From Planobispora longispora (GTDB lineage Bacteria; Actinomycetota; Actinomycetes; Streptosporangiales; Streptosporangiaceae), in NCBI RefSeq assembly GCF_016863135.1, contig NZ_BOOH01000067.1:1-64000 (forward strand): 64,000 nucleotides of DNA, written 5' to 3'. Below the pieces are notes generated by a model that was given only the letters and a program-made list of their open reading frames with translations, had not been told where the DNA came from and did not search any database. Positions within the stretch are counted from its first letter, which is position 1, and every line of letters begins with the position of its first letter. The translations under genes and the position numbers were made by a program. Positions 2,489-46,907 of this stretch are shown here, piece by piece.

Positions 2489-2594
2489 GTTTACGGCGTA
2501 AACGCTCGCGATGATCACCTGGGCTCCGCCGCGTGTTCACGGCGTAAACGCTCGTGATCGTCACCGGCATCCGTCCCGTGTCCACGGTGTGAAC
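2489..2594. repeat. ParB-site-like palindromes, cluster 1 (one exact, two degenerate)
   Basis: GTTTACGGCGTAAAC at 2489-2503, then degenerate copies at 2535-2549 (GTTCACGGCGTAAAC) and 2580-2594 (GTCCACGGTGTGAAC), spaced 46 and 45 bp. This is the leftmost group of the array that continues to 12232. The flanks also follow the palindrome (RGY before, RCY after), so the real site may be about 21 bp. Confidence 0.85.
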
Positions 2595-2650
2595 GCTCGG
2601 TGGGAGCGGGCCGGAACCCCTACGTAGCAGGGGGTTGAGGGATCGGGAAC

Positions 2651-2797
2651 CGCGGCAACTTTCCTGCACCTTTGGCGCACTTCTCCCGCTACGCCCGGAC
2701 GGCTTACTGGATGTCGAAGGCCGCTACGGCAGCCTTCACCGGCACCGGATCCCGCTCGCGGGACTCACCGCCGGAGTCCTGTCGCCGCACGAGGGAT
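2651..2797 (+). promoter_or_regulatory. Conserved 5' leader, copy A (candidate regulatory RNA)
   Basis: From the CGCGGCAACT box at 2651 to the GTCCTGTCGCCG end, this untranslated leader is almost identical to 46961-47100, which precedes another secreted-enzyme gene. It contains hairpins such as TCCCGC/GCGGGA (about 2749-2762) and GGACTC/GAGTCC (2761-2779). The shared stretch is read in different frames in the two places, so conservation is at the nucleic-acid level. In actinomycetes, leaders before wall-hydrolase genes are often ydaO (c-di-AMP) riboswitches, but I cannot match that consensus here. Confidence 0.6.
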
Positions 2798-2805
2798 CAC
2801 AATTC

Positions 2806-3648
2806 ATGACGTTCGCCGCTCGCCTCAGCACCCGCGCCCGCCTGTTCACCGCCACCCTGGGTCTGACCCTGACCGCCGGACTGAGCATGGGCGTCGCAGG
2901 TGCGGCCCACGCGGAGACCGCCCAGAAGACCCCCGCCACGCAGACCGCCGAGCAGAAGCAGGTCATGCTCAAGGGCGCGACCACCGCCTCCTACTACTGG
3001 GACGACGCCTCGGGCCGCAACGGCGACACCGGCCTGCCGGCCTCGGGCAAGCCCATGCAGAAGGGCCTGGCCGCCTCCCCGTCCTGGCCGCTGATGACCG
3101 AGGGCTACGTCGTCTACAACGGCAAGAAGGCCCCGTTCTTCGTCGGCGACCGCGGCCCGGGCGAGCCCTCCAACCGCGGCATCATGCTGGACCTGGACGC
3201 CAAGACCTTCGCCGAGCTGACCGGCGGCACCTTCAACCCCGACACCCTGGGCGTGGACGGCAACGGCGGCAAGGGCCACATCAAGGTCGACTACGTCATC
3301 ACCAAGTGGGGCCCGGGCGTGGGCAAGAAGAACCACCCGGTGGCCTTCGAGACCGGCGCCTGGGGCAAGAAGGACCGCAACCCCGCCGAGCCGGTCACCC
3401 TGACCCAGCCGGCCAAGGCCGAGCCCAAGAAGACCGAGAAGACCGAGGCCAAGAAGGCCGAGGCCGACAAGGCCGCCCAGCCCGCCGCCGCGGACGCCAA
3501 GACCACCGAGCTGAAGGCCGCCCCGGTCGCCGCCGCCCGTGAGGAGGGCATCTCGCCTGCTCTGGCCGTGACCATGCTCCTGACCCTCGGCGGCGCCGGA
3601 TTCGCCGCCCTGCGCATGGCGCGGCAGCGCGCCAAGGCCGACGCCTGA
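2806..3648 (+). CDS. Secreted, membrane-anchored protein, possible wall-type enzyme
   Basis: 280 aa. Residues 1-36 form a signal peptide ending AAHAE. The mature part (about 50-190) carries motifs such as FVGDRGPGEPSNRGIMLDLD and a following KGHIKVDYVITKWGPG, reminiscent of double-psi-barrel/3D or RlpA-like wall domains; this is a resemblance, not a firm assignment. A Lys/Ala/Pro/Glu-rich linker (about 200-245) leads to a C-terminal membrane helix (ALAVTMLLTLGGAGFAAL) and a basic tail, so it stays attached to the membrane. The start is ATG 2806 after GAGGGATC. Its leader and signal peptide closely resemble those of the CHAP protein at 47118. Confidence 0.8.
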   Translation: MTFAARLSTRARLFTATLGLTLTAGLSMGVAGAAHAETAQKTPATQTAEQKQVMLKGATTASYYWDDASGRNGDTGLPASGKPMQKGLAASPSWPLMTEGYVVYNGKKAPFFVGDRGPGEPSNRGIMLDLDAKTFAELTGGTFNPDTLGVDGNGGKGHIKVDYVITKWGPGVGKKNHPVAFETGAWGKKDRNPAEPVTLTQPAKAEPKKTEKTEAKKAEADKAAQPAAADAKTTELKAAPVAAAREEGISPALAVTMLLTLGGAGFAALRMARQRAKADA

Positions 3649-3659
3649 TCCCCGCCGCT

Positions 3660-3674
3660 GTTTACGACGTAAAC
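3660..3674. repeat. ParB-site-like palindrome, centre A variant
   Basis: GTTTACGACGTAAAC, the only copy with A at the centre instead of G or C. It lies 11 nt after the stop of the secreted protein gene. Confidence 0.8.
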
Positions 3675-3720
3675 ACCTGACCGAGGCGCCCCAGCGGCGC
3701 CACCAGGTCACCCCGACAGC

Positions 3721-3758
3721 CACGAGGCCGCCACCGGACATCCGGTGGCGGCCTCGTG
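3721..3758 (+). terminator. Strong hairpin terminator
   Basis: An 18-bp perfect stem (3721-3738 with 3741-3758) followed by TTTCACT. It closes the secreted-protein gene and could also act for the convergent vapC-like gene. Confidence 0.85.
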
Positions 3759-3795
3759 TTTCACTCCACCTGCCGGGCCCCTCTCACGGACCGCT

Positions 3796-3810
3796 GTTTA
3801 CGCCGTAAAC
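3796..3810. repeat. ParB-site-like palindrome
   Basis: GTTTACGCCGTAAAC flanked by GCT and ACC, between the terminator and the 3' end of the PIN toxin gene. Confidence 0.85.
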
Positions 3811-3905
3811 ACCTCGGCTTCCCGGGCCGTCTACGGTGCTCCGGCCTTCAGGCACCTGGAAGGCGTCGGCGCGAGACCGGCGGTCCCCTGCGAGATCGGG
3901 ACTGT

Positions 3906-4337
3906 TCAGTCGTCGAGGTCGGTGACTTCGACGACGGAGAGCGCCCCGCGAGCCTCGAGAACCGCGTCCTTCCAGCGACCGTAGTCGGTGGTCAGGATGG
4001 GGCAGCCGTGCAGGATGGCCTGGACCGCCGTGTGGACGTCCCACAGTTCGCCGAGCGATTCGATTTCCAGGCGGAGCTGGGCGAGGTCTGCGGAGTCGTC
4101 GAAAGTGGCCGGGCCCACGAACTTCGCGGAGTTCAGCCGGCAGACGCCTCGTACGGTCGCCAGCTGCTCGTCGACGCAGCCGACGTCGACGGCGGCGCCG
4201 GTGACGGCCAGGGCCGGGACGATCAATGTGATCTTCTCGGCGTCGAGCTGCTGAAGAAGGATGATGGTGTCGGAGTCGCCGCGTGCGACTTCGGTGAGCA
4301 CCATCGCGTCCAGGACGAACGCCGGGTCAGCGGGCAC
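3906..4337 (-). CDS. PIN-domain toxin, VapC-like
   Basis: 143 aa. The N-terminus (FVLDAMVLTEVARGDSD) carries the first PIN aspartate (D10) in its usual hydrophobic strand, and the C-terminal ILTTDYGRWKDAV carries the late acidic position, as expected for a VapC-type ribonuclease that cuts tRNA or rRNA. The central acidic residues are less typical, so the catalytic set needs a structure-based check. Start GTG at 4337; it overlaps the upstream antitoxin gene by 11 nt, the normal antitoxin-toxin arrangement. Confidence 0.75.
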   Translation of the reverse strand: MPADPAFVLDAMVLTEVARGDSDTIILLQQLDAEKITLIVPALAVTGAAVDVGCVDEQLATVRGVCRLNSAKFVGPATFDDSADLAQLRLEIESLGELWDVHTAVQAILHGCPILTTDYGRWKDAVLEARGALSVVEVTDLDD

Positions 4338-4578
4338 TCAAGATCTCCTGGGCCTTGCGTGCCCGCCGCCGGGCCCGGGCGACCGCCTCCGGATTCTGCT
4401 GAGCCTTCTCCACGGCCGCGCGCCAGGCGGCGTCCGCGCGGCGTTCCGTCTCGATCCTGCGGGCGACGGCCTCGTTGAAATAGGCCGACACGGATCGGAC
4501 ACGTCCCTGCTCGACTTGCTGCTGGACGTAGTCGTGGAAGTCCTCTTCCACGGTGATGGTGATCGGGCGGGTGCTCAT
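4327..4578 (-). CDS. Antitoxin of the PIN toxin pair, ribbon-helix-helix type
   Basis: 83 aa from ATG 4578. The N-terminal PITITVEEDFHDYVQQQVEQ and following SVSAYFNEAVARRIETE look like a ribbon-helix-helix DNA-binding domain that would bind the operon promoter; the Arg/Lys/Glu-rich helix behind it would bind the toxin. A TATGAT -10 box (minus strand, 4585-4590) ends 6 nt before this ATG, so the mRNA is probably leaderless. A GTG at 4605 is an alternative start but would lie inside the promoter. Confidence 0.75.
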   Translation of the reverse strand: MSTRPITITVEEDFHDYVQQQVEQGRVRSVSAYFNEAVARRIETERRADAAWRAAVEKAQQNPEAVARARRRARKAQEILSAR

Positions 4579-4584
4579 ACCTTC

Positions 4585-4590
4585 ATCATA
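4585..4590 (-). promoter_or_regulatory. -10 box of the vapBC-like operon (leaderless)
   Basis: TATGAT on the minus strand, followed by six bases and then the antitoxin ATG. Transcription would begin at or next to the start codon. Confidence 0.5.
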
Positions 4591-4666
4591 TGAACGGGGG
4601 ATCACGTTGCGAAGACCCTCGGACGGGCCGGTTCCGGTCCGCCCTCCTTCCGCCCCGGAGGGACTT

Positions 4667-4711
4667 CCCGGTCCTCTCGCGAAGCCTCCCGGCTCACGCG
4701 AGAGGACCGGG
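4667..4711 (-). terminator. Long inverted repeat downstream of parB
   Basis: A perfect 15-bp stem (4667-4681 with 4697-4711) with a 15-nt loop. It lies between the end of parB and the start of the toxin-antitoxin operon, both on the minus strand, and so probably separates the two transcripts. Confidence 0.65.
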
Positions 4712-4732
4712 GACCCTTCGTCCCCGGCCCCC

Positions 4733-4747
4733 GTTTACGCCGTAAAC
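4733..4747. repeat. ParB-site-like palindrome after parB
   Basis: GTTTACGCCGTAAAC, 53 nt downstream of the parB stop codon. Confidence 0.85.
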
Positions 4748-4799
4748 ACTCCACCGGTCTCGGCGACCGGCGTTTCCCGCGCTCCGGCCTGCGCCGTAC

Positions 4800-5699
4800 T
4801 CACCGGGCCACCGACGCCGACAGCAGTTCCACCAGCGTCTCCAGGTCCTCCCGGGAGAGACGGGCCCGCAGTTCGGCCGCTATCGCCGAGGGCGGCCCGA
4901 GCGGGATGACGCCGTAGTTCTGCCTCCTGCTCGCGCTCTTCTCCCCGGCGGCCGAACCCTCCCGACGGGCGTTTACGCCGTAAACACCGTCCCCGGCGTG
5001 AACGCTGTCCCCGGCCCGCCGTACGGGCTCCACCACGGGCGGCGGGGCGACCGGCATGGCCTGCTCCTCCGGGGGGAGCTTCCCGATCTCCCGGGCGTCC
5101 TCCAGCTTCAGCGTGCCGTCGATCAGCGCCTGCTGCAGTTCCGGCCGGAGCTTCAGCAGGATCATCCGCTGCGAGCCCCAGCCCGGCGACTTGCCCACCT
5201 TGCGGCACGCCTCCCGCAGGGAGATCTCCCGCAGTTCCATCAGCCGCTGCAGGGCCCGGGCCTCCTCCAGAGGCGTCAGGTCGTCCCGCTGGAAGTTCTC
5301 GATCAATGTGCGCTCCTCGGCCGACTCCGCCGACTCCCGCACCTTGACCGGCACCTCGGTCAGCCCGGCCAGCGCCGCCGCGTGCCGGCGCCGGTGGCCG
5401 TGCTGGATGACGTACGGCCTGTCTCCGACCTTCTCCGCGTGGTGCGGGTAGACGGCCAGCCAGGTGTCCCGGGGGACGACGACCAGATCCTGCAGAAGAC
5501 CCTCGTCCCGGATCGTGTCGGCGAGCCCTTCCAGGTCCCGCAGGCTCTCCCGCGGGTTGTCCGGGTTGTCGGCCAGGTCCTCCAGCCGCACCGTCTCCGG
5601 CCACTTGGGCGCGGCCGGGGCGGCGGGCGCGGCCGGGGCCTCGGCGTCGGCCGGCTGGCCGACCATCAGCGCCGCGAGGCTCGTCCTCTTCCCCGCCAT
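4800..5699 (-). CDS. parB: ParB/Spo0J-family partition protein
   Basis: 299 aa. ParB proteins are CTP-dependent DNA clamps that load at parS palindromes and are moved by ParA. Visible: an N-terminal VRLEDLADNPDNPRESLRDL segment (ParB box I type), GHRRRHAAALAG in the place of the CTP-binding G.RR..A motif, then TLIENFQRDDLTPLEEARALQ (box II type), and a helix-turn-helix around SLREACRKVGKSPGWGSQRM that would read the site. The C-terminal LSREDLETLVELLS may dimerise. Start ATG 5699 overlaps the ParA stop (TGATG). The C-terminal linker contains one exact copy of the palindrome in its coding sequence, read as GVYGVNA. Confidence 0.92.
   Translation of the reverse strand: MAGKRTSLAALMVGQPADAEAPAAPAAPAAPKWPETVRLEDLADNPDNPRESLRDLEGLADTIRDEGLLQDLVVVPRDTWLAVYPHHAEKVGDRPYVIQHGHRRRHAAALAGLTEVPVKVRESAESAEERTLIENFQRDDLTPLEEARALQRLMELREISLREACRKVGKSPGWGSQRMILLKLRPELQQALIDGTLKLEDAREIGKLPPEEQAMPVAPPPVVEPVRRAGDSVHAGDGVYGVNARREGSAAGEKSASRRQNYGVIPLGPPSAIAAELRARLSREDLETLVELLSASVAR
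4971..5003. repeat. ParB-site-like palindrome inside parB, plus a degenerate neighbour
   Basis: An exact GTTTACGCCGTAAAC at 4971-4985 lies inside the parB reading frame in the linker between DNA-binding and C-terminal parts. A poor second match (GTCCCCGGCGTGAAC) starts at 4989. Confidence 0.8.
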
Positions 5700-6418
5700 C
5701 AGCCCCGCCCGTTCATCATCTGGCCGTGCTCCAGCGCGAGCCGGTAGAAGTCCTCGCGGGCCTCCATCGCGACCCGGTTCTTCGGGTACTGGGTGACGAC
5801 CAGGCCCTCGGCCGACGCCCGAGAGTGGATCTTGTAGTGCCGGATCACCGTGTTGGCCAGCGGCCAGCCCTGGTTGCGGACGAACTGCAGGGTGTCGTCC
5901 AGGTCGGCGCGGCCGTCGCGCGGGTCCCAGTTGTTGGCGACGACGAGGTACGGCAGCTTGCGCGGCTTGACGACCTTCTCGACCGTGTTGAACGTCGGCT
6001 GGAACGACAGCGGCTCCGGCTCGATGGGAACGATCACGTCGTCGGCGTTGTCGAGCACGGCGCGCAGCGCGTCGGCGGCCTTGCCGTCCCCCAGCGGGTC
6101 GTCGGTGGAGGCGCCGTCCGACAGGTCCAGCCAGCCGGGCGTGTCCACCCACACGTCGGTGATGTGCGGGATGTGCCGGAGGTTCGCCAGTCCGTCGATG
6201 TCGTCGTGCGCCTGGACGAAGTCGAAGGGCAGCGCCTCGCCGACCCGCTCCGACCACCAGACGGCCGAGCCCTGCGGGTCGATGGAGACGGTGACGACCG
6301 GGGGGTTCTCCCCCGCCACTCCCCCGACGGTGTCGGCGGTGACGGCGGCGAGGTTGACGGCGAGCGTCGACTTGCCGACGCCGCCCTTCTGGTTGAGGAC
6401 AACGTGCACTCTGGCCAC
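5699..6418 (-). CDS. parA: ParA-family partition ATPase
   Basis: 239 aa. A deviant Walker A motif KGGVGKST (residues 11-18) follows a short N-terminus with no helix-turn-helix, as in class Ib/chromosomal-type ParA. VSIDPQGSAVWW is the A' motif and DVWVDTPG the Walker B-like motif. It should bind nonspecific DNA in the ATP form and pull ParB-bound DNA. Start is GTG 6418 with an AGGAG ribosome site. It is translationally coupled to parB. Two palindromes lie in the 300 bp upstream, so ParB may control its own operon. Confidence 0.92.
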   Translation of the reverse strand: MARVHVVLNQKGGVGKSTLAVNLAAVTADTVGGVAGENPPVVTVSIDPQGSAVWWSERVGEALPFDFVQAHDDIDGLANLRHIPHITDVWVDTPGWLDLSDGASTDDPLGDGKAADALRAVLDNADDVIVPIEPEPLSFQPTFNTVEKVVKPRKLPYLVVANNWDPRDGRADLDDTLQFVRNQGWPLANTVIRHYKIHSRASAEGLVVTQYPKNRVAMEAREDFYRLALEHGQMMNGRG

Positions 6419-6493
6419 GTGGGGCTCCTGTTCCGTGTGCTTCCCGAGGTGGTACTTCGGATCAGGAGGCCAACTATCCCAGATGCTCCTGGC

Positions 6494-6610
6494 GTTTACG
6501 CCGTAAACACTCGGGGCGCGCCCGGCAGAGCAGGTAGCCGAGTATCCCGAGACCAGGACGCCGAGCCGGACGGCACGCGGTATGAGGCTTCGGGTGTTTA
6601 CGGCGTAAAC
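6494..6610. repeat. ParB-site-like palindromes upstream of parAB
   Basis: Exact copies at 6494-6508 (centre C) and 6596-6610 (centre G), 102 bp apart, in the 300-bp region between parA and the divergent toxin-antitoxin operon. Nothing else coding is seen in 6419-6734. Confidence 0.85.
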
Positions 6611-6721
6611 ACAGGTGGACCGACGGGGCCACCGAAGGCCTCACAGCCACTACCGGTACCGCCTGCTGTCAGAGAAACGGTGATCACTATGACCATCATG
6701 TACAGGGTGCTCACCAGCCCG

Positions 6722-6727
6722 TACGAT
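6722..6727 (+). promoter_or_regulatory. -10 box of the first Phd/RelE-like operon (leaderless)
   Basis: TACGAT ends 7 nt before ATG 6735, so the transcript would start at the initiator codon. This is the reason for choosing ATG 6735 over the ATG at 6726, which overlaps the -10 box. Confidence 0.5.
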
Positions 6728-6734
6728 GGGAGGC

Positions 6735-7031
6735 ATGACGAACGAAACTCTCGGCATCGTCGAGGCTCGTAAGAGGCTCGGTCCCCTGGTGGCCCGCGCC
6801 GTCCACGGTCGTCAGCCGACCACGATCACCCGCTCCGACGAGGAACGCGCTGTGCTCATCTCCGAAAAGGAGTACGAGGAACTGCTGCGGGCTCGCGAGG
6901 AACTGGAAATCGGTCGCGTCCGTGAGGCGATCGCCGCCCGGGAACGTGGTGAGCTGAGGATGCACCGCTACGAGACCCGTGACGAGCTATACGCCGACTT
7001 CGGCCTGCCCGCCCCCGGCGAGCACTCTTGA
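6735..7031 (+). CDS. Phd/YefM-type antitoxin (module 1)
   Basis: 98 aa. The motif EARKRLGPLVARAVHGRQPTTITRSDEERAVLISEKEYEEL is the Phd/YefM fold: an N-terminal DNA-binding dimerisation domain followed by a helical toxin-binding tail. It is a clear paralogue of the protein encoded at 58371 (shared EARKRLG.LV.RAVH and the ..Y..FG.P end). It overlaps the toxin gene by 4 nt (TTGA). Confidence 0.88.
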   Translation: MTNETLGIVEARKRLGPLVARAVHGRQPTTITRSDEERAVLISEKEYEELLRAREELEIGRVREAIAARERGELRMHRYETRDELYADFGLPAPGEHS

Positions 7032-7267
7032 AGCGACCCCTCGATCTCGCCGACGGCGTTAGAGAGACCCTGCGGCAGGCCGCTCCCGGTCTGCGCTCCA
7101 TGATCGTTGATATCTTTCTCGATCTTGCCGAGGAGCCTGAACCACTGGGCGTGCGCCCCTACGGAGGCATCCCCGGTGCGTTCGAACTGCGCACCGATGC
7201 CTTCCGCCTCATATACACGCACGGTGCTGATCATGTCTCGGTGTGGGTCCTCCAGATCAATACATGA
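7028..7267 (+). CDS. RelE/ParE-superfamily toxin (module 1)
   Basis: 79 aa with a TTG start at 7028 overlapping the antitoxin stop. The segment EEPEPLGVRPYGGIPGAFELRTDAFRLIYTHGADHVSVWVLQI shows the typical core strands of RelE-like mRNA interferases with the late R.IY pattern. The same core appears in the toxin at 58667. RelE-type catalytic residues vary, so activity cannot be read from the sequence alone. Confidence 0.82.
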   Translation: MKRPLDLADGVRETLRQAAPGLRSMIVDIFLDLAEEPEPLGVRPYGGIPGAFELRTDAFRLIYTHGADHVSVWVLQINT

Positions 7268-7306
7268 CCGGACGTCCCGCCGGACGGCTCAGACAGGGCA
7301 CCAGGT

Positions 7307-7321
7307 GTTTACGGCGTAAAC
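7307..7321. repeat. ParB-site-like palindrome
   Basis: GTTTACGGCGTAAAC between the convergent toxin and recombinase genes, 18 nt before the recombinase stop codon. Confidence 0.85.
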
Positions 7322-7338
7322 GCCTCCGCTCTCCGGCG

Positions 7339-8538
7339 TCAGAGACCGGCGCCGTGCATCGGGTTGTGCTTCCAGCGGTCGACGTCGCGGATGTACTTCA
7401 GCAGCTCACTCGACCCGTCGCGCCAGCCGCCGTGGCGGCCGATGGCGACCAGGTCGGCCCCGGCGGTGTAGGCGCCGGTCGCGCCGCCGGCGCGGAGGCT
7501 GTGGGCGCTCAGGTCGTCGACGGCGAGCCCGGCGCGGCGGGCGGCGCGGGTGAGGATCTGGCCGATGGAGTGACCGCTGAGGCGGCCGTCGGCGGGACCG
7601 CCGCCGGCGGGCTTCGCCCCGGGGACGCCGGCGATGACGCCGCGCCGGTCGACGCGGCGCAGTAGCGGGCCGGAGACGGAGCCGCGCTCGGCCAGCAGCG
7701 CCCGCCAGGCGCGCAGGGCCCGCACCGGGCAGGTGAGCGGGTCGGAGCCGTACGGCACGGCGACCTGACGCCCGGTGGCGGCCTGGTCGGTCTTGGACCG
7801 TCGGACGGTCACGACGAGGCCCTGCTCGACCTCGACGACGTCGCCCAGATCGAGGCCGGCGAGCTCGCTGCGGCGGGCCATCATGGCCCAGCCGAGGACC
7901 ACGGTCAGGCGGTCGCGCAGGTCGATCGCCGTGCCGGTGTCGAGGGCGGCGGCGATTCTGCGCAGGTGGGATACGGCCAGCGCGGCGGCCTGGCGCTGGT
8001 TGGGCAGCCCGGCGGCGGCCCGCTCGCCCCGGTACGCCTTGCGGACGGCGCGGGCGGCGGTGGTGTCGGGCGGGGTGAGGCCGTTGACGCGGTGGGCGGT
8101 GCGGACCCCGGCGATGGCGCGGGTGATGGTGGCCGGCGCCTTGCCCTCGTCGGCGAGGGCGGAGACGTACTCGGCGAGGGTCTCGGCGGAGGCGGGCAGC
8201 GCCGTGCGGCCCGTCCGGGAGCACCAGGCGGTGAAGCGGTTCCAGTCCCCGGCGTAGGCGCGGCGGGTGGCGTCCGGGACGCTGGCGGCGATGCGGGCCG
8301 CGGTCGAGGCGGACACCGTGGAGTCGGGCGTCCCGGCGAGGGTTCCTTCGATCACCTGCCCGCCGGGCGCCGGGCCGGGCGGGCTTCCGGCGGCCACCGG
8401 ATCGGGCCGCTTCCCGATCACGGCCGGGACCGCCGATCCCATGAGGCCGGCCGGGGCGGACGCCTCCGGAGTCTCCGGGACGGCCGGCGTCCCGGGGACG
8501 GACGCGGCCGGGACGTCCACCGATCGGTCATCGTTCAC
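7339..8538 (-). CDS. Tyrosine recombinase / integrase
   Basis: 399 aa. An N-terminal Pro/Ala-rich extension (about 95 residues) precedes a SAM-like core-binding domain (TRRAYAGDWNRFTAWC). The catalytic domain has the expected residues: Arg in MMARRSELAGL, Lys in VRRSKTDQ, H-x-x-R in SAHSLRAGGAT, His in IGRHGGWRDGS, and the nucleophile Tyr in LLKYIRDVDRW. Start GTG 8538 has a GGGAGGAG ribosome site. It is larger than XerC/XerD (about 300 aa) and no excisionase is next to it. Its promoter region holds a regular array of palindromes. It may resolve dimers for the partition locus or be a relic integrase. Confidence 0.88.
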   Translation of the reverse strand: MNDDRSVDVPAASVPGTPAVPETPEASAPAGLMGSAVPAVIGKRPDPVAAGSPPGPAPGGQVIEGTLAGTPDSTVSASTAARIAASVPDATRRAYAGDWNRFTAWCSRTGRTALPASAETLAEYVSALADEGKAPATITRAIAGVRTAHRVNGLTPPDTTAARAVRKAYRGERAAAGLPNQRQAAALAVSHLRRIAAALDTGTAIDLRDRLTVVLGWAMMARRSELAGLDLGDVVEVEQGLVVTVRRSKTDQAATGRQVAVPYGSDPLTCPVRALRAWRALLAERGSVSGPLLRRVDRRGVIAGVPGAKPAGGGPADGRLSGHSIGQILTRAARRAGLAVDDLSAHSLRAGGATGAYTAGADLVAIGRHGGWRDGSSELLKYIRDVDRWKHNPMHGAGL

Positions 8539-8642
8539 CGTGCGCTCCTCCCATGATCTCCCGCTCTCGAAGTCTGGCAGGCGAGGCCGACAGGGGCACG
8601 CCGGCCGACCGGAGATCCGGGGGCGGGCGGAGGCCGTCGGGC

Positions 8643-8889
8643 GTTTACGCCGTAAACACCCGACGCCGTGGACCGGGACAGCGTTTACGGCGTAAACACC
8701 GGTGGCTGGACGAGGCAGCGTTTACGGCGTAAACACCCGGCCACGATCACCGCAGGCGTTTACGCCGTAAACACTCGGCGGCGTGGACGGGGCGCCGTTC
8801 GCGGCGTGAGCATCCGGCGGCACGCGCGGCCCCCGTTTACGCCGTAAACACTCGACCGGGAGACCACGGCCGGTGTTCACGGCGTGAAC
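8643..8889. repeat. Regular array of seven ParB-site-like palindromes
   Basis: Exact copies start at 8643, 8683, 8720, 8758 and 8835; degenerate copies start at 8797 (GTTCGCGGCGTGAGC) and 8875 (GTTCACGGCGTGAAC). Start-to-start spacing is 40, 37, 38, 39, 38 and 40 bp. The degenerate copies fall exactly on the beat. The array sits between the recombinase and MCP promoters and is the densest part of the whole set. Confidence 0.92.
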
Positions 8890-8963
8890 ACCGGCGGCTG
8901 ACGTTCCCCCAGCCGACGTTCGCCCAGCGTTCGCTCCTCCGGCGCTTCCGGCCGGCTGTGCCC

Positions 8964-8991
8964 CTCAGCTCCGGCGCAGGTCTGCCGATGG
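8964..8991 (+). promoter_or_regulatory. Flagellar-sigma-like promoter of the MCP gene
   Basis: CTCA (8964-8967), 16 nt, GCCGATGG (8984-8991), leaving a leader of about 27 nt before ATG 9025. The same motif with identical spacing precedes flbD, cheA and other genes in this window. GCCGAT is the -10 core of sigma-28/WhiG-type sigma factors. Confidence 0.7.
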
Positions 8992-9024
8992 GTCTCGGTT
9001 GCAGAACTGTCACGGAGGATGATC

Positions 9025-10629
9025 ATGCGCAGGGTCAGGATCGGAGTACGGCTGGCGGTGGCATTCACCGTGCTGCTGACCCTTCTCGCCGGGGTCGCCG
9101 TGATCGCCTTCTCGGCGATCCAGGACCAGCGGCAGACCTCGTCGCAGGTGCGCGATCTGCAGATCCTCACCAGCCAGGCCAAAGAGATCAAGTTCTATGC
9201 GGCCAGCATGAGCGGCTGGCAGAGCGCCTACATCTCCGACGTCCACCGCCTGGGCGCCGCCCGCGCGTTCGGCGGGGACTCGGTCAACCACAAGGCGTGG
9301 GAGCAGGAGCGCGAGCGCTTCGAGGAGTTCCTCCCCCGCGTCGTCACCGGCACCATGAACGCCTCCGAGCGGAAGCTCTTCGACCGGATCACCGCCGAGT
9401 CCGAGACGTACTTCACGATCAACGACAAGATCGTCGAGACGTTCCGCGCGGGCACCTCCGAGGCGCTGTGGCAGGGCGACCAGCTCGCCGTCAACGACAG
9501 CTGGAACACCTACTACCGGATCCTGCGCGCCGCGCAGCAGCTCGCCCACTCCGTGGACCAGCGCAGCCAGCAGGCCGTGGCGGACTCCGCGGACGCGGCC
9601 GCCTCCGCCCAGCGGGCGATCACGATCGGCGCGGCCCTGGCCCTCCTGCTCGGCTGCCTCCTCGCCTTCCTGGTGACCCGGAGCATCGTCGCGCCGGTCA
9701 CCGCGGCGCGGGACGCCCTGCGCACGGTGGCGCGCCGCCGCCTGGACGTGGAGCTGCCGACCGAGGGCGACGACGAGCCCGCGCAGATGGCCGTCGCGCT
9801 CAACGAGGCGCTCGCGGCGGTCCGCTCGGTCGTCACCGACGTGGCCGACCACGCCGTGACCCTCGCGGACATGTCCACCGAGCTGGACGCCGTCACCAGC
9901 ACCTTCGCCGCCAGCGCGACCCACGCCTCCGAGCAGGCCGGCGCCGTCGCCCAGACCTCGCACGAGGTGAGCCAGAGCGTGCGGAACGTCGCTGAGGGCT
10001 CGCGTGAGATGGGCGGCGCGATCGAGGAGATCTCCAGGAACGCCGCCGAGGCGGCCCGGGTGGCCGCGGAGGCCGTGAACGCCGCGGAGTCGGCCAACGC
10101 CACCGTGGCGCAGCTGACGTCGTCCTCGTCGGAGATCGACCACGTGGTCAAGCTGATCACGAGCATCGCCGAGCAGACGAACCTGCTGGCCCTCAACGCC
10201 ACCATCGAGGCCGCCCGCGCCGGCGACGCCGGCAAGGGTTTCGCCGTGGTCGCCCACGAGGTCAAGAGCCTGGCGCAGGAGACCGCGGCGGCCACCGAGG
10301 AGATCAGCCGTCTCGTCCTGGCCATCCAGGACGACAGCACCGCGGCGGTCGGCGCCATCGCCAGGATCAGCGAGGTCATCTCGGGGATCAGCGACTACCA
10401 GACGACGATCGCCAGCGCGGTGGAGGAGCAGACCGCCACCACCAACGAGATGAACCGCAGCGTCGCCGACGCGGCCGGCGGCGCCTCCCGGATCGCGGAG
10501 AGCATCACCGCCGTGGCCGCCTCCGCCTCGGCGGTCGACACGGACGTCACCCGCTCGCGCCGGACCGTGGAGGAGCTCACCGGCGTCTCCCAGCGGTTGC
10601 GGGAGTCGGTTGAGCAGTTCACCTACTGA
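9025..10629 (+). CDS. Methyl-accepting chemotaxis protein
   Basis: 534 aa. Transmembrane helix 1 is about residues 8-30, an extracytoplasmic four-helix-bundle-like sensor follows to about 195 (with ISDVHRLG and [17 protein letters not shown]), helix 2 is about 197-218, then a HAMP domain and a long signalling coiled coil. The hairpin tip [18 protein letters not shown] is the conserved CheA/CheW contact site. Start ATG 9025 rather than 9019, because the GGAGG at 9014-9018 is 6 nt from it. No ligand can be named. It has a flagellar-sigma-type promoter and fits the CheA/CheW encoded at 36-39 kb. Confidence 0.95.
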
Positions 10630-10656
10630 GCCGCGTCCGAGCCGTGCCGCCGGAGC

Positions 10657-10719
10657 GTTTACGCCGTAAACACTCCGGCGCCGCGGCCCGTGGGTCCGGC
10701 GGGCGTTTACGCCGTAAAC
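10657..10719. repeat. ParB-site-like palindromes between MCP and BMP genes
   Basis: Two exact copies (10657-10671 and 10705-10719, both centre C), 48 bp apart. The remainder of 10630-10858 shows no gene. Confidence 0.85.
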
Positions 10720-10858
10720 ACCTGCCGGGTCCTCACCCCCTCCCGAGAAGACATCCAGAGAAGTCCCCAGAGAAGCCGTTCAGAGACGCCGGAGACCGCC
10801 GGGACCGAAAGACCTCCCGCATCACCGGCCCCTTCGCCAGGCAGTAAGGAAGACCACA

Positions 10859-11956
10859 GTGCGCAAGACGAACAGGACCGTGCTGGCGGTACTGGCCCTG
10901 TCGGCCATGACGGCCGTCGCCGGATGCGGGGCCGAGCCGGCCGTGCGCCTCGCCGCCGCCGACAGCGACGGCCTGGGACTGGAGCAGGTCCGGGTCGGAA
11001 TCGCCTTCGACCAGGGCGGCCGGGGGGACAAGAGCTTCAACGACGCGGCGGCAGCCGGACTGGACCGGGCGAAGAAGGAGCTGGAGGTCGACGGCGTCGA
11101 GGTCACGCTCTCGGAGGAGACCGAGGAGGAGCGGACCGCCAAGCTCCGCGAGCTGGCGAAGTCCGGCCGCAACCCGGTCATCGCGGTCGGCTTCCTGTAC
11201 GCCAAGGCGGTCCAGACGGTCGCGGCGGAGTTCCCCGACACCACCTTCGCCATCGTCGACGACGACTCCTTCAGCGCCCCGAACGTGGTCTCCCTGGTCT
11301 TCGCCGAGGAGCAGGGCTCCTACCTGGTGGGGGCGGCCGCGGCGCTGAAGTCCCGCTCCGGGCGGGTGGGGTTCATCGGTGGCGTCCGCATCCCGCTGCT
11401 GCAGAAGTTCGAGGCCGGATTCGCCGCCGGGGCCGCCAAGGCCAGGCCGGGGGTGGACGTCAGCGTCGACTACGTCTCCGTGCCGCCGGACTTCAGCGGC
11501 TTCGGCGCCCCGGACCGGGCCAAGGAGATCGCCGAGAGGATGATGGCGGACGGCGTGGACGTCATCTACACCGCCGCCGGAGGCTCCGGCGCGGGCTCGC
11601 TGGAGGCGATCGCCGCCCGCAAGGGGGTCTGGGCCGTCGGGGTGGACTCCGACCAGTACCAGACCGCCGACCCCGGTGTCCGCGACGCCATCCTGAGCTC
11701 GATGATCAAGCGGGTGGACAACGCCGTCTTCCAGGAGATCCAGGCGTTCATCAAGGGCGACCGGGCGGGCGGCGTCAAGCGTTTCGACCTGAAGACCGAC
11801 GGTGTCGGCTACTCGGTGTCCAACGAGAAGGCCGTGGCTCCGGTGCGCAGGCAGGTGGACTCCCTCCGCCAGCGGATCCTCGACGGCGGCATCACCGTCC
11901 CCACCAAGCCTGACCTCACCCTCCGGACGAAGACGCGCCGCGTGTTTACGCCGTAA
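10859..11956 (+). CDS. BMP-family (PnrA/BmpA-like) substrate-binding lipoprotein
   Basis: 365 aa. Lipobox with Cys23 (TAVAGC) marks a membrane-anchored lipoprotein. VRVGIAFDQGGRGDKSFNDAA is the signature opening of the BMP/PnrA family, whose known members bind purine nucleosides for ABC import; VDVIYTAAGGSGAGS and WAVGVDSDQY are later family motifs. Start GTG 10859 after AAGGAAG. No permease or ATPase gene is adjacent, so it is an orphan binding protein; it could serve a distant transporter or act as a receptor partner of the neighbouring MCP (inference). Its stop codon TAA lies inside a palindrome copy. Confidence 0.88.
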   Translation: MRKTNRTVLAVLALSAMTAVAGCGAEPAVRLAAADSDGLGLEQVRVGIAFDQGGRGDKSFNDAAAAGLDRAKKELEVDGVEVTLSEETEEERTAKLRELAKSGRNPVIAVGFLYAKAVQTVAAEFPDTTFAIVDDDSFSAPNVVSLVFAEEQGSYLVGAAAALKSRSGRVGFIGGVRIPLLQKFEAGFAAGAAKARPGVDVSVDYVSVPPDFSGFGAPDRAKEIAERMMADGVDVIYTAAGGSGAGSLEAIAARKGVWAVGVDSDQYQTADPGVRDAILSSMIKRVDNAVFQEIQAFIKGDRAGGVKRFDLKTDGVGYSVSNEKAVAPVRRQVDSLRQRILDGGITVPTKPDLTLRTKTRRVFTP

Positions 11957-12009
11957 ACACCCGGCGCTCGCCAGGGGCTGAGCTCCCGGCGGGCGTTTAC
12001 GCCGTAAAC
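11944..12009. repeat. ParB-site-like palindromes at the end of the BMP gene
   Basis: Exact copies at 11944-11958 and 11995-12009. The first overlaps the last codons and the TAA stop (11954-11956) of the lipoprotein gene, which therefore ends in VFTP. Confidence 0.85.
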
Positions 12010-12060
12010 GCTCCTCGCCCTTCGTGCGCCGGCCTGTCACAGGGGTCATGCCCGGCTGCC

Positions 12061-12232
12061 GTTTACGGCGTAAACACCTGGCGCCGGTCCGGGGGCTCCC
12101 GCGAGCGTTTACGGCGTAAACACCTGGCGTTGGTCCGAGGCCGGGTTCCCGGGAGCGTTTACGCCGTAAACACTCCTCCCTTCGTGCGCCGGCCCGCTGC
12201 AGGGAGCCCCGTCCGCTGTTTACGGCGTAAAC
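12061..12232. repeat. Right-end cluster of four ParB-site-like palindromes
   Basis: Exact copies at 12061-12075, 12107-12121, 12157-12171 and 12218-12232, spaced 46, 50 and 61 bp. No further copy was seen to the right of 12232 in this window, so this is the right border of the array. The whole gap 11957-12314 has no gene. Confidence 0.9.
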
Positions 12233-12314
12233 GCTGCGGGGCGGTGATGGTCCCGCAGCGGGTTAACCTTCCGTACCCGCGCCCGGAGGGGAGGCGGGGG
12301 ACGAAGGAAGGTCC

Positions 12315-12950
12315 ATGATCACGTCATCCGCCGCTCGCAGGTTCCGCCTCCGCCGTACGGCCGCCGCGGCGATGACCGTGCTCGTCACGGGAGCGCTGAC
12401 GGCGTGCGCGGCCGGGGAGCCCGCTGCTCCGGGCCGGTCGCCGGCGGGGCCGTCCGCCGGAGCCCATCGCCTGGTGCTTCCGCCGCCCCAGCGGGTGGAG
12501 GGCTTCCGCCTCGACGGCATGTGGCCGTTCTTCACCCGCCAGGAACTGCTGGACAGGCAGCCCCATCTCGGGGACGCCGAAGGCGTCTCCGTGCGCGACG
12601 CCGTACAGGTGCGCTACGAGGAGGCCGAGCGGGCCGAGGGGCAGAAGTGGACCAGGAAAATGATCTTCACCGGCTACGACGCGGAGCTCGGCCCCGATCG
12701 GCGGCGGCAGGTCGTGGAGGCCGCCGTCGGCGACTTCCTGGAAGGCGTCACGCCCGACCACAGGTTCGATCTGACGGCCAATCCGTCGAATGAGAGCGCT
12801 CTCTGCATTGGAATCATCGAACTGGGATCCGAGACCGGCATGTGCGCCTGGGCCGACGACGGCACGATCGGCGTGGTGACCGGCGCGAATCTCGGAGCCG
12901 CCGAGCTCAAGGCGGTCCTTCCCGCGTTCCGTGCCGCCGTCGAACGCTGA
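12315..12950 (+). CDS. Lipoprotein of unknown function
   Basis: 211 aa. A basic N-terminus and hydrophobic core end in a lipobox with Cys31 (TGALTAC), so it should be lipid-anchored outside the membrane. After a Pro/Ala/Gly linker the domain (about 60-211) has no family signature I recognise; it holds two Cys in the last third (SALCIGIIELGSETGMCAWAD) that could form a disulfide. Start ATG 12315 follows GAAGGAAGG. It converges with the anti-sigma gene, with GC-rich imperfect hairpins in the 103 bp between them. Confidence 0.7.
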   Translation: MITSSAARRFRLRRTAAAAMTVLVTGALTACAAGEPAAPGRSPAGPSAGAHRLVLPPPQRVEGFRLDGMWPFFTRQELLDRQPHLGDAEGVSVRDAVQVRYEEAERAEGQKWTRKMIFTGYDAELGPDRRRQVVEAAVGDFLEGVTPDHRFDLTANPSNESALCIGIIELGSETGMCAWADDGTIGVVTGANLGAAELKAVLPAFRAAVER

Positions 12951-13053
12951 CGCCGCCCGCATCGTGGACGGCGCCGCCCGCCGGGCGGACGGGCGCCGGT
13001 TTCCGCCACCCGGAGGCGCGCCGTGCGGAGTCCCGCCCGCCGGGCGGTCCGGG

Positions 13054-13815
13054 TCAGGCGGCGGGCAGGTCCACCAGCAGCAACGGGGTGGTGGTGGGCT
13101 GCGCCGAGCCGCCCGCCGGTTCCACCGTCACCCCCACCTGGGCCACTCCCTCGCCGGTGACGCTGATCACCGGCAGGGTGGCGCCGGTGGCGTCCGGGGA
13201 CAGCAGCCCGGCTGAGGAGATCTTGCCCGGGGCCAGTTGCCACAGCTGGTAGACCCGGTCGTCGGGCAGGTCGGCCAGCCCCGACGCCCAGAACACCATC
13301 CGGCCCTGCGAGCGGGACACGACCACGCGGCCACGCCCGCCCTCGACGGCCGGGGCGGTGAAGGTCCGCGCGTCGGCGGCCGTCAGGACGGCGGCGATCC
13401 GCCGCTCGGCGTGCCGTGCCTCCTCCAGTTCCTGGCGTGCCTGGACGGTCGTCAGACCGAGCACGGCCACCGCGGCCGTCGCGGCCGCCACGATGACCGC
13501 CGACAGCCGGGGCCGCCACCCGCTCACGCGCGGACGGAACCGGCCGCCGCCCGGTGCCGGGACGGCCGGTGGCAGCTGCCGTACCTGGTCGATCTCGGCC
13601 ATCACCCGCTCCCGCAACCCCGGCGGAGGCTCGGCCGCCACCGCCCGGCCGAGCCGGGCCGCCGTCTCGGTCAGCGTCACGACCTCCTGGGCGCACTCGG
13701 GGCACCCGTCCAGATGCCGCTCGAACCGCCGCCGCTCCAGTTCGTCGTCGACGGCGTCCAGCACGTAGGCGCCGGCCAGGGTGTGCGGGTCGAACCCGCC
13801 GCTCCTCGTCCTCAC
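13054..13815 (-). CDS. Anti-sigma factor, RskA-like
   Basis: 253 aa. The cytoplasmic N-terminus has a zinc anti-sigma motif H34-x3-C38-x2-C41 (ERHLDGCPECAQ). One membrane helix spans about 104-122. The extracellular part ends in an RskA-type domain (VYQLWQLAPGKISSAGLL). It should hold the sigma factor encoded just upstream until regulated proteolysis releases it. Start GTG 13815 overlaps the sigma stop (GTGA), so the two are translated together. Confidence 0.9.
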   Translation of the reverse strand: MRTRSGGFDPHTLAGAYVLDAVDDELERRRFERHLDGCPECAQEVVTLTETAARLGRAVAAEPPPGLRERVMAEIDQVRQLPPAVPAPGGGRFRPRVSGWRPRLSAVIVAAATAAVAVLGLTTVQARQELEEARHAERRIAAVLTAADARTFTAPAVEGGRGRVVVSRSQGRMVFWASGLADLPDDRVYQLWQLAPGKISSAGLLSPDATGATLPVISVTGEGVAQVGVTVEPAGGSAQPTTTPLLLVDLPAA

Positions 13816-14426
13816 CGATCCACCCCCAGGCAGTCGCGCAGCCGGATCAGCCCGTCGCGCATCCGCGTCTTGACCGTCGCCAGCGGCGCTCTGACCAGCT
13901 CGGCGACCTCTCGATAGGAGTATCCGCCGTAGTAGGCGAAGGTGAGCGACTCGTGCTGCAGCGGTGTCAGGCGCTCCAGGCAGCGGCGCAGCCGTTCGCG
14001 TTCCAGGCGGTCCTCCACCAGCTCCGACACCTCGTCGTACGGCCGGTGCGTCTCCATCCGCGCCACCCGCTCCTCACGGTCCAGACCCGCCTGGGCCGAG
14101 CGGACCCGGTCGATCGCCCGGCGGTGCGCGATCGTGAGCACCCAGGCCAGCCCGGAGCCACGGCCGGGTTCGTAGCGGGCGGCGCTGCGCCACACCTCGA
14201 CCATGACCTCCTGGGCGACCTCCTCGCTCTGCGCCCGGTCCCGCAGCACCCGCAGCACCAGGCCGTACACGCGCGGGGCCATCGCCTCGTACACCCGCTC
14301 GAACGCCGCCCGGTCCCCCCGCCCCACCTTCTGCAGGAGCTCCTCCAGCCCCGGCGGACGGCCGTCCGGACGATCCTCGCCCGCCCGCGGCCTGCCTCGT
14401 GCTCCCACGCGCTTCCTCCGCCCCAT
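13812..14426 (-). CDS. ECF sigma factor, SigK-like
   Basis: 204 aa. Region 2 (YEAMAPRVYGLVLRVLRD, then EEVAQEVMVEVW and AWVLTIAHRRAIDRVR) and region 4 (LTPLQHESLTFAYYGGYSYREVAEL, then PLATVKTRMRDGL) are complete; there is no region 3. The pairing with an RskA-type anti-sigma resembles the SigK/RskA class. Start ATG 14426 was chosen for its GGAG 8 nt upstream; an in-frame ATG at 14570 would add 48 Arg/Pro-rich residues. In 14427-14870 I see no gene. Confidence 0.9.
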   Translation of the reverse strand: MGRRKRVGARGRPRAGEDRPDGRPPGLEELLQKVGRGDRAAFERVYEAMAPRVYGLVLRVLRDRAQSEEVAQEVMVEVWRSAARYEPGRGSGLAWVLTIAHRRAIDRVRSAQAGLDREERVARMETHRPYDEVSELVEDRLERERLRRCLERLTPLQHESLTFAYYGGYSYREVAELVRAPLATVKTRMRDGLIRLRDCLGVDR

Positions 14427-14870
14427 CCGCACGGCTCCGACGCCAAGGGTTTCGGAGCAGCTCGTGCCGCGGATGGCTGCGGGACGCGTCGATCCCGTAT
14501 CGGGATGTGCCCGGCTCCCGGCGGGCGGCGGGTTCTCCGTCCGGCGGCGTTTCCGAGGGGCCTTCTTCACCGCCGCCTTCGCGCGTATCCCCTGTCCATT
14601 TCTCGGGTCTTATGGGAGAAGGGTGAGAATCGCATTAAAACAGATCCGGCGACAGGCCGGGAGCACGGAGATCTTCCGTGTGCGAGGAGACAGCCCCAGC
14701 TCAGGCGGGTGAAAAGCGGGCGATGAGCCGCCTCGCCGGCCTCCCGCCCGGACGGTCCCGCCGTCGCGGCCGCTTCCTCATCGAATTATCAGAAGACCGC
14801 CATCGGTCATTCATACGGCTCGCCGAACATCGAGGTGAGAAAGCAAGCCGAACCGAAAACGAGGAGCACC

Positions 14871-15470
14871 GTGAACCGCACCAAGCGTCTGGCCGTCATC
14901 GCCGCTCTCAGCGCCGCCGTCGCCGGCGGCGTCGTCACCCCCGTGGCGGCCTGGGCCGCGGAGCCCACTCCCTCCGCGTCGTCCTCGGCGAGCTCCGGCG
15001 GCACGACCGCCGACACGACCGCCGACACGGGCGGCGCCGCGTCCGGGACCGGCGAGCGCGGCCCGCGCGGCGGCCACGGCCGGATGGCCGCCGGGCTCGC
15101 CGAGATCCTCGGCATCGACGAGGACAAGATCACCACGGCGATGGAGGAGCTCCGCGAGGAGGCCGGCGCCGATCGGACCGACAAGAGCGAGCAGCCGGCC
15201 GACCGCGAGGCGTGGAACGAGGCCCTCGCCGCCAAGCTCGGCGTGACCGCCGACAAGCTCACCGCCGCCATGGACGCTCTGCGCGGGCAGCGCGCCGCCG
15301 AGGCCGAGGCCGCCCTGAGCGAGCGGCTCAAGACCGCCGTCACCGCCGGCACCATCACCCAGGCCGAGGCCGACGCCGTCCTCAAGGCCCAGAAGGCGGG
15401 CCTGCTCGGCGGCGGCCCCCGCGGAGCCAAGGACACCGGCGACGCCGCTCAGGACTCGGCCCAGTCCTGA
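14871..15470 (+). CDS. Secreted helical protein of unknown function
   Basis: 199 aa. Signal peptide of about 34 residues (ending AAWAAE), then a Ser/Thr/Gly linker and a Gly/Arg patch, then repeated helical units with I/V-T-x-D-K-[IL]-T-x-AM-x-x-L[RE] (GIDEDKITTAMEEL and GVTADKLTAAMDAL). The repeat suggests an internal duplication of a small helical motif seen in many actinomycete secreted proteins without known role. Start GTG 14871 follows GAGGAG. Confidence 0.7.
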   Translation: MNRTKRLAVIAALSAAVAGGVVTPVAAWAAEPTPSASSSASSGGTTADTTADTGGAASGTGERGPRGGHGRMAAGLAEILGIDEDKITTAMEELREEAGADRTDKSEQPADREAWNEALAAKLGVTADKLTAAMDALRGQRAAEAEAALSERLKTAVTAGTITQAEADAVLKAQKAGLLGGGPRGAKDTGDAAQDSAQS

Positions 15471-15507
15471 CCCGCCGCCGCGTCGCCGGGTTGAAGGGAG
15501 AAGGGCC

Positions 15508-15720
15508 GTACGCAAGCTCATCGAGTCCACGTTCGTGTCGCTGGACGGAGTCATCAGCTCGCCGGAGAGGTGGGCTCGCCGTACTGGGACGAGGAGCACT
15601 CGGCGTACGGCGGCGCCGCGTTCTCCTCGTGCGACGCCCTCCTGCTGGGGCGCGTGACCTACGAGGCGTTCGCGCAGGTGTGGCTCAAGATGGAGGAGGC
15701 CGACGACGTCTACGCGGCCA
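15508..15720 (+). pseudogene. Broken DHFR/RibD-C-like gene
   Basis: The frame from 15508 reads RKLIESTFVSLDGVISSPERW, the typical start of RibD-C/dihydrofolate-reductase-like proteins, but begins with GTA. About 15575 the frame is lost by one base; the next frame continues SPYWDEEHSAYGGAAF then LLLGRVTYEAFAQVW, again typical. The homology ends near 15720 where the convergent TetR gene begins, so the C-terminal two thirds are missing. A start loss, a frameshift and a 3' deletion together mark a pseudogene. Confidence 0.75.
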
Positions 15721-16222: not shown

Positions 16223-16238
16223 TCCTACCCCCTTGGAA

Positions 16239-16284
16239 AATGAGTCTCGACTCATTATCGTAAGTCGAGTCGTCACTCATCTTA
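16239..16284. promoter_or_regulatory. Operator pair of the TetR/SnoaL divergon
   Basis: AATGAGTC-TC-GACTCATT (16239-16256), followed by an imperfect palindrome at 16261-16284 with TAAG/CTTA outer and GAGT/ACTC inner arms. Both share the GAGTC/GACTC core expected for one TetR regulator. Confidence 0.65.
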
Positions 16285-16298
16285 TCTTGGAGGCAGGA

Positions 16299-16709: not shown

Positions 16710-17011
16710 GCGCCACCGCCGCACACGACCGCGATGACCGTGATGACCGCGGCGAGCGCAGCCGCCGCATCCGGATCCCGGACCGCGGCCCCAGCCGGGT
16801 GGGACGGGCAGCTGAACGCCTCATGATCGATGAGACCGCCTCAAGCCCGGTGAGACAGGACGAGGGCACCCGCCGGAAGTCTTCTTCCCCTGCGATTTCT
16901 GAGTTGCGTTAACCAGGTGTTATCGAAACTCAGAGGGGAGATGAATATGCGTTTTTCTGACACGCGATTCGTTTAGGCGTGACGCGAAAGCTTTTGCTGT
17001 AGGGTGCCTCC

Positions 17012-43976: not shown

Positions 43977-43981
43977 TCGTC

Positions 43982-44503: not shown

Positions 44504-46897
<2,394 letters not shown>

Positions 46898-46907
46898 GGG
46901 CGGCGGG

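Follow-up and report, generated by a model that had tools for sequence, protein, structure and literature searches.

The closest described counterparts of the palindrome array and parA-parB pair found in a 64,000-nucleotide stretch of the Planobispora longispora genome (contig NZ_BOOH01000067.1, positions 1 to 64,000; the window below) are partition systems of plasmids and chromosomes. Plasmid SCP1 of Streptomyces coelicolor, an actinobacterial plasmid, carries two type I systems, parABS1 and parABS2, with ParB proteins of the helix-turn-helix (HTH) class and short inverted-repeat parS sites around the parAB operon, one of them within parB (available portion of PMC13245405). According to the same portion, different SCP1 ParB proteins tell near-identical sites apart, slide in a manner dependent on cytidine triphosphate (CTP), and give enrichment over 15-20 kb in chromatin immunoprecipitation (ChIP). 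The comparison is one of description and leaves site letters aside; SCP1 is linear and has three sites per system, whereas 23 sites over 9.7 kb of a putatively circular replicon are present here. The ParABS of SLP2 from Streptomyces lividans (NC_004933, locus L152), which is reported to function in segregation during sporulation (cited in the available portion of PMC13245405), has a ParB 36% identical to that of the window and two odd-centred palindromes of the TTAACG type within parB near its 3' end. Unlike the window, SLP2 has two sites, a TTAACG half-site, a linear plasmid and a longer ParA gene.

KorB of RK2 is also a ParB-fold protein with several odd-centred palindromes (OB) on one plasmid (PMC11790492, in part). 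The structure model of the window ParB matches KorB structures 8qa9 and 8qa8, with 23-24% identity in the fold alignments, and the half-site is TTTAGC in RK2 versus TTTACG here. For RK2 KorB, a partner, KorA, and a role in repression are described in the available part of that paper. Chromosomal ParB-parS and Noc-NBS share the domains of the window ParB, and specificity is set at the same alignment positions, 173 and 201 (PMC7383237, in part). Their site, GTTTCACGTGAAAC, is even-centred, in contrast to the odd-centred 15-bp site with another core described here, and position 201 is E in the window ParB, G in ParB and R in Noc, as far as the latter two are covered in that part of the paper.

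The ParAB pair at 4803-6418 very probably uses the palindromes of the window as its parS sites. With good confidence, a circular motility plasmid of approximately 120-190 kb is regarded as having the array for its centromere, recognized by the ParB encoded at 4803-5699, with ParA and ParB as a type I HTH-ParB partition system like those of actinobacterial plasmids. It is probable that the flagellar genes and ParABS reside together on an extant circular plasmid and not at a chromosomal locus.

The palindrome GTTTACGSCGTAAAC occurs 20 times exactly in the window, first at 2489-2503 and last at 12218-12232, and once with centre A at 3660. With up to three mismatches, 23 places were found against 0.19 expected, a number reached in none of 100 shuffles, and in a scan of the whole window all 23 fall within 2489-12232. 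Five copies are degenerate, at 2535 (one mismatch), 8875 (two), and 2580, 4989 and 8797 (four each). These counts, and the confinement of the palindromes to this part of the window, agree with the first-pass annotation, which had described the array as centred on parA-parB; the pair in fact lies in the left half. Because the window holds 14 four-mismatch matches, the copies at 2580, 4989 and 8797 are singly at chance level; those at 2580 and 8797 sit on the array's own spacing. In the 21 copies without arm mismatch the base immediately 5' is always Y, followed outward by G (15 of 21) or C (6 of 21), and the base immediately 3' is always R, followed outward by C (21/21).

By pattern scan, the array opens with an exact site at 2489-2503 and a one-mismatch site at 2535-2549; a decayed copy with four mismatches at 2580-2594 is placed by the array spacing. 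Convergent intergenic gaps hold the centre-A site at 3660-3674 and exact sites at 3796-3810 and 7307-7321. Exact sites at 4733-4747 and, within linker codons of parB, at 4971-4985 are followed by a possible decayed copy with four mismatches at 4989-5003, and two exact sites lie in the upstream region of parA (6494-6508, 6596-6610). The exact site at 8643-8657 starts a ladder with steps of 37-40 bp; further exact sites occur at 8683-8697, 8720-8734, 8758-8772 and 8835-8849, a decayed four-mismatch copy at 8797-8811 is recognized by the ladder spacing, and the two-mismatch site at 8875-8889, GTTCACGGCGTGAAC, has the form found in Planomonospora sp. ID82291. Exact sites follow at 10657-10671 and 10705-10719, at 11944-11958 on the stop codon of a Bmp-family gene, and at 11995-12009, 12061-12075, 12107-12121, 12157-12171 and 12218-12232.

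The draft assembly of the same genome comprises 8,843,645 bases in 120 contigs, and all 20 exact copies of GTTTACGSCGTAAAC lie in this stretch; the palindromes are not spread over the genome. When any centre base and up to two arm mismatches were allowed, 23 places fell in the array and four two-mismatch strays outside it, while the reversed control pattern gave two. Among contigs C67 (the window contig), C78 and C84, all 23 sites are on C67, and a scan of C78 and C84 with up to three mismatches found none. The canonical GTTTCACGTGAAAC is present as four exact copies on contigs C15 and C16 and one copy with one mismatch on C17; the site of the chromosomal parABS is not that of the array and is located elsewhere in the genome.

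ParB (4803-5699, minus strand, 299 aa) was identified by Pfam, NCBIfam, a structure model and alignment. The domains ParB_N (residues 36-137) and HTH_ParB (140-215) are both over the Pfam cut-offs, as is the match to TIGR00180 over its own. The model (mean predicted local distance difference test score (pLDDT) 75.5, predicted template modelling score 0.44) comprises an N-terminal domain, an HTH bundle, a disordered linker at approximately 227-263, whose codons contain the parS at 4971-4985, and two C-terminal helices at 270-298 with a block pLDDT of approximately 82-93, which would serve in dimerization. Its best fold matches are ParB, Spo0J and Noc, followed by KorB structures. The CTP-binding motifs of ParB proteins are named GxxRR and ENxQR. 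In 22 ParB rows G101, R103, R104 and N135 are invariant and R138 is nearly so, and CTP use by the window ParB is predicted. ParA (5702-6418, minus strand, 239 aa; Pfam CbiA and AAA_31 over cut-offs) has a Walker A motif, KGGVGKST, at its N-terminus and no N-terminal HTH extension, and its gene adjoins parB. A long ParA gene (approximately 1150-1200 bp) was noted in six Streptomyces plasmids with a ParB of this family (L152, L153, L155-L157 and L163), and a short one (approximately 720 bp) in Planobispora, Nonomuraea and others.

The assignment of the palindromes to this ParB is supported by covariation of ParB residues with site bases. A first set contained 45 rows, namely the window and 44 named loci with a related ParB. 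A recurring odd-centred palindrome lies beside or within parB in 43 of the 45 (the window and 42 of the 44 loci), with half-sites TTTACG, TTCACG, a mixture of these two, TTAACG, TTAACC, TTTACC, ATTACG, ATTACC and CTTACC. For L071, L077, L083, L103, L104 and L105 the site was taken from a first-pass or second-ranked palindrome family, L105, with one exact copy, being the weakest assignment. The identity of residue 200 agrees perfectly with the base next to the centre (G in the 32 rows with E, C in the 11 with K/R), and this column has the top score among the 190 ParB columns tested. A second set consisted of 17 further PLSDB plasmids, hand-picked from 60 listed matches out of 674 records. Under a rule fixed after the output had been seen (top family, at least two exact copies, log10 p < -5), eight of the 17 have a clear site; residue 200 is E, K or R and fits in 7/7, and the eighth has D with G. 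Of these eight ParB proteins, seven share no more than 70% identity with any first-set row, and one shares 90%.

In the joint set of 51 loci with an assigned site, E/D at residue 200 goes with G in 38/38 and K/R with C in 13/13. Residue 172 follows the base six positions from the centre, with S-C in 4/4, Q-A in 3/3, H-G in 1/1 and P/A/G/E/N-T in 43/43; this second rule had been seen in the first set for Q alone and was completed on the joint set, not predicted beforehand. Window residues 172, 178, 183 and 200 align with residues 173, 179, 184 and 201 of Caulobacter ParB, the four published specificity residues, of which 201 reads position 6 and 173 reads position 1 of the half-site (available part of PMC7383237); the Caulobacter numbering was fixed by residues that this paper names. 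P172 and E200 of the window ParB are accordingly named here as putative specificity residues. The covariation in 51/51 loci supports the first-pass attribution of the palindromes to the ParB encoded at 4800. On a tree, the G/C switch beside the centre occurred at least three times, and residue 200 changed along with it in 3/3 independent pairs. Residue 183 was considered as reader of the -4 base on the strength of a high score in the first set and was rejected, as it gave no clean rule in the joint set and had no support from the tree.

The same covariation bears on the suggestion that the palindromes serve another protein, for example as crossover sites of the tyrosine recombinase encoded within the array, or are a REP-like spreading element. 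The location of that gene, and the fact that sites flank most genes as cassette recombination sites would, are in keeping with such an origin, which is nevertheless highly improbable: the site sequence tracks ParB residues 172 and 200 in every locus of the joint set, no exact copy occurs elsewhere in the genome, and in Planomonospora sp. ID82291 (G018) the sites are present without a recombinase match in the 19.9-kb locus, a 68%-identical stretch lying approximately 40 kb away.

Two loci on Streptomyces plasmids, L153 (K200, CTTACC) and L156 (D200, CTTACG), encode ParB proteins 72% identical whose sites differ in the base beside the centre, and form a natural pair for a specificity switch. Planomonospora parontospora has two ParB proteins, L070 (E200) with mixed half-sites TTYACG, seven with at most one mismatch, and L071 (R200) with five GCTTACCSGGTAAGC sites. 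L070 looks intermediate between the TTTACG and TTCACG forms. When the stretches at L070 and L071 were compared, neither had the site type of the other (TTYACG versus GCTTACC).

The array is conserved in relatives. All four Planobispora genomes searched, that of the window included, carry 14-20 exact copies, and any exact site was found in 6 of 250 genomes of the family. Exact S-centred TTTACG sites number 20, 19, 14, 15, 13 and 3 in these six Planobispora and Planomonospora genomes. ParB orthologues with at least 79% identity are encoded in 7 of the 250 genomes, again including that of the window; six of the seven have the TTTACG site and the seventh has GTTCACG half-sites. Outside the two genera, a site was assigned in 34 of 36 named loci, and each of these 34 has 1-6 exact copies within the stretch examined, compared with 13-20 in five of the six TTTACG-site genomes; the system thus raises the question of what a large, spread-out site set adds. 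Some spacers have diverged around conserved sites: in four comparisons covering the MCP-Bmp and parA-upstream gaps (MCP, methyl-accepting chemotaxis protein), identity is 93-100% within sites and 47-70% outside them.

The plasmid nature of the locus is indicated by contig order in the sister genus. Contigs C7 of Planomonospora sp. ID67723 (G096; 143,848 bp) and C13 of Planomonospora sp. ID82291 (191,718 bp) are circular permutations of each other with internal inversions; along C7 (0-143.8 kb), the matching C13 coordinates fall from 109 kb to 0, resume at 191 kb and fall again to 109 kb. C7 is cut within flagellin at both ends and no partner contig was found; the five close flagellin matches in this genome are all on C7, and one other, 67% identical, is at 1.47 Mb of C1. 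Three contigs of P. rosea (C84, C28 and C81; listed as 96,886, 12,533 and 11,371 bp) tile the same circle, C84 spanning the ends of C7, and contigs C67, C78 and C84 of the window genome map within it. The closed circular map is seen in the relatives from draft contigs and is partial in the window genome, where the copy would likewise be a free plasmid. None of the eight contigs mapped whole (C7, C13, and C67/C78/C84 of the window genome and C28/C81/C84 of P. rosea) was seen to run into other DNA at its ends, and no tRNA was found on C67, C78 or C13. GC skew, examined for an origin, gave no clear pattern.

These observations decide largely against a second chromosomal ParABS, in which a plasmid system once integrated beside the flagellar genes would have been kept for anchoring or folding the locus. 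MCP and Bmp genes stand beside ParAB in 7/7 genomes with a close ParB (in one of them on two contigs), as in a fixed chromosomal locus, and fliS is on the ParAB contig in three of them. The permutation of C7 and C13, the tiling of the circle by P. rosea contigs, the contig ends and the tRNA result all speak against it, and the idea is considered improbable. A chromosomal second centromere had been the first working idea and was abandoned once the circular permutation of C7 and C13 was recognized. The first-pass annotation had offered either a second, divergent ParABS or a plasmid-derived centromere; of these the plasmid option fits, in the stronger form of a probable extant circular plasmid.

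One gene is a candidate for the replication function of this plasmid. It encodes a putative replication protein of 439 aa (41641-42960, minus strand), its function being suggested by relatives on plasmids, and is accompanied by the gene for an 80-aa partner (43114-43356, minus strand), ribbon-helix-helix by eye and 88-92% identical in two Planomonospora replicons. Both are conserved on the three replicons compared. Relatives of the C7 homologue of the 439-aa protein are present on 16 of 72,556 PLSDB plasmids, all actinobacterial (plasmids alone were searched). One of the 16, Nonomuraea gerenzanensis p1 (48 kb), also carries ParAB; its ParB (48.8% over 70%) ranked top in the PLSDB search with ParB. 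Another rep-like protein, encoded next to a small gene, was noted at L112 1399-2991 and G000 C78 7893-9356 (both minus strand), with relatives on three Streptosporangiales plasmids in PLSDB; the replicon may therefore have two replication modules. No known Rep family was found among 10 chosen proteins of the 136 called on C7, and no search for relaxase or transfer genes was made.

Several points weigh against the assignment of the array to this ParB and to a circular plasmid. No site could be assigned for L076 and L107 among the 45 first-set ParB proteins, and the counts exclude them. Nine of the 17 further plasmids have no clear site under the post hoc rule, and their best weak family fits residue 200 in four (L154, L158, L160, L167) and misfits in five (L155, L161, L162, L164, L166), which is chance-like. 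With just three independent pairs, the tree comparison does not reach significance (p 0.25). No residue was found to read the -4 base cleanly; L074 and L075 of Nonomuraea, with ParB proteins 89% identical and both with G183, have sites that differ at -4 (TTAACG and TTTACG). In Planomonospora venezuelensis (G060) three exact sites are shown and the contigs end within the array. Sites turn over in the tyrR-MCP spacer, where the four Planobispora have 6, 4, 2 and 4 of them; for P. rosea, identity in this spacer is 0.58 within sites and 0.59 outside. The assemblies compared are drafts. Some stretches are present in C7 or C13 alone, and C13 has long stretches without a match on C7; an end overlap on C7 or C13, sought as proof of a circle, was not found, for which end repeats (flagellin, MCP) may be the reason. 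The circle contigs of the window genome total 115,630 bases and gaps remain. One tRNA-His was called on C7, within a gene with similarity to MCP, and the two rep-like proteins are without matches in Pfam and NCBIfam.

Planobispora and Planomonospora form motile spores. In the proposed mechanism, each odd-centred palindrome would be a loading site for ParB dimers, which would close into CTP clamps and slide until approximately 10 kb of DNA is coated, by analogy with ParB1 and ParB2 of SCP1 and KorB of RK2. Transport of the ParB-DNA complex over the nucleoid by ParA would then supply every compartment, and every spore in particular, with a plasmid copy. The replicon, proposed to be common to the two genera, would carry flagellar and chemotaxis genes and the candidate Rep, and would be stabilized by toxin-antitoxin pairs and the tyrosine recombinase.

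Site placement raises the further question of whether ParB clamps also silence or tune genes between the sites, as KorB does, in addition to partition and not in place of it. The genes in question are those for the chemoreceptor, the Bmp-family protein, the toxin-antitoxin pairs, the recombinase and parAB. In all, 21 sites out of 23 fall entirely between genes, although only 21% of the positions in the array stretch would permit that (P 7e-13); the two others lie within parB and over the stop codon of the Bmp-family gene. Sites occur in the divergent parA-phd and tyrR-MCP gaps, the architecture resembles the odd-centred, palindromic RK2 operator (oligonucleotide ATTTTAGCGGCTAAAAG; PMC11790492, in part), and KorB regulates from near and distant sites according to the portion available. 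Against such tuning, the sites at 3660, 3796 and 7307 occupy convergent gaps and another lies within parB, places in which an operator of a promoter would be unexpected; a position between genes is also explained by the sparing of genes from damage; and Pfam gives HTH_ParB and ParB_N with no KorB domain at E <=0.01. This added role is accordingly held to be possible but doubtful. Somewhat less likely still is a 10-kb ParB-CTP domain with two jobs, delivery of the plasmid to every spore and KorB-like silencing of the genes between the sites until spore release. If it were so, chemoreceptor, toxin-antitoxin and recombinase genes would be silent until release, and motility in these zoospore formers would be a plasmid-borne trait coupled to segregation.

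Should the partition plasmid be as proposed, two zoospore-forming genera would carry their flagellar genes on a circular plasmid that is maintained by a partition system of its own. The available portion of a 2023 survey (PMC10746217) gives Streptosporangiales as without flagella. In the literature searched (titles and starts of abstracts, with subscription journals mostly outside), no plasmid of Planobispora or Planomonospora was reported; the terms "plasmid" and "flagell" are absent from the available portion of PMC8269224, and "plasmid" from that of PMC10746217. A PLSDB search for near matches with window positions 36000-60900 returned 92 records, none covering 80%, and among the matches listed there was no flagellar plasmid of these genera. 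Relatives of FlhA are found on plasmids of Arthrobacter, Pseudarthrobacter and Curtobacterium; plasmid-borne flagellar genes therefore exist in Actinobacteria. The parts of the system are already known, and a motility plasmid with so dense a set of sites, both conserved and dispersed, was not found in the titles and passages searched; nor was an exceptionless two-residue code in this ParB family. A two-residue rule linking ParB to parS in actinobacterial plasmids is simple and testable and would help to predict which plasmids can share a cell.

Genes in and around the array include, on the minus strand, a PIN-domain toxin-like protein (3906-4337) and its ParD-like antitoxin partner (4327-4605), both from weak Pfam matches under the curated cut-offs, and a tyrosine recombinase of the Phage_integrase family (7339-8538), a possible multimer resolvase, for which XerC/D models are under their cut-offs. 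On the plus strand are a Phd/YefM antitoxin (6726-7031, Pfam) and a small putative toxin partner (7028-7267), named from its position alone and without a Pfam or NCBIfam match. Cargo genes, also on the plus strand, are fliD (174-1562, flagellar, by sequence match), the contig starting at the flagellin gap, and, between parS groups, a methyl-accepting chemotaxis protein (9019-10629, by sequence match) and a Bmp/PnrA-family protein (10859-11956, Pfam).

FliD was found in 6 of the 250 family genomes, five with this ParB and a sixth (G040) without it. Contig C25 of G040 (L109, L130-L132), from a flagellated member of another genus, is a 72-kb flagellar contig that also ends in flagellin. Loss of flagella in G002 and G003, where FliD was not found, was considered as a natural experiment and rejected; FlhA is present in 8/8 genomes searched, and contig gaps are therefore the likely cause of the missing FliD. 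Flagellin-like sequences outside the flagellar circle occur at approximately 308807-309459 of G000 C19 and 458259-459528 of G018 C9. The protein encoded at 2806-3648 of the window has no Pfam or NCBIfam match and appears secreted by eye; its relatives are present in 3-4 copies among the parS sites in two Planomonospora (L035 at 9125, 11414 and 14561; L055 at 11396-17793), and a further copy lies elsewhere on C7. Window positions of approximately 43490-46900 are 86-90% identical to several actinobacterial records, one of which, among the matches listed, is annotated as excinuclease UvrA.

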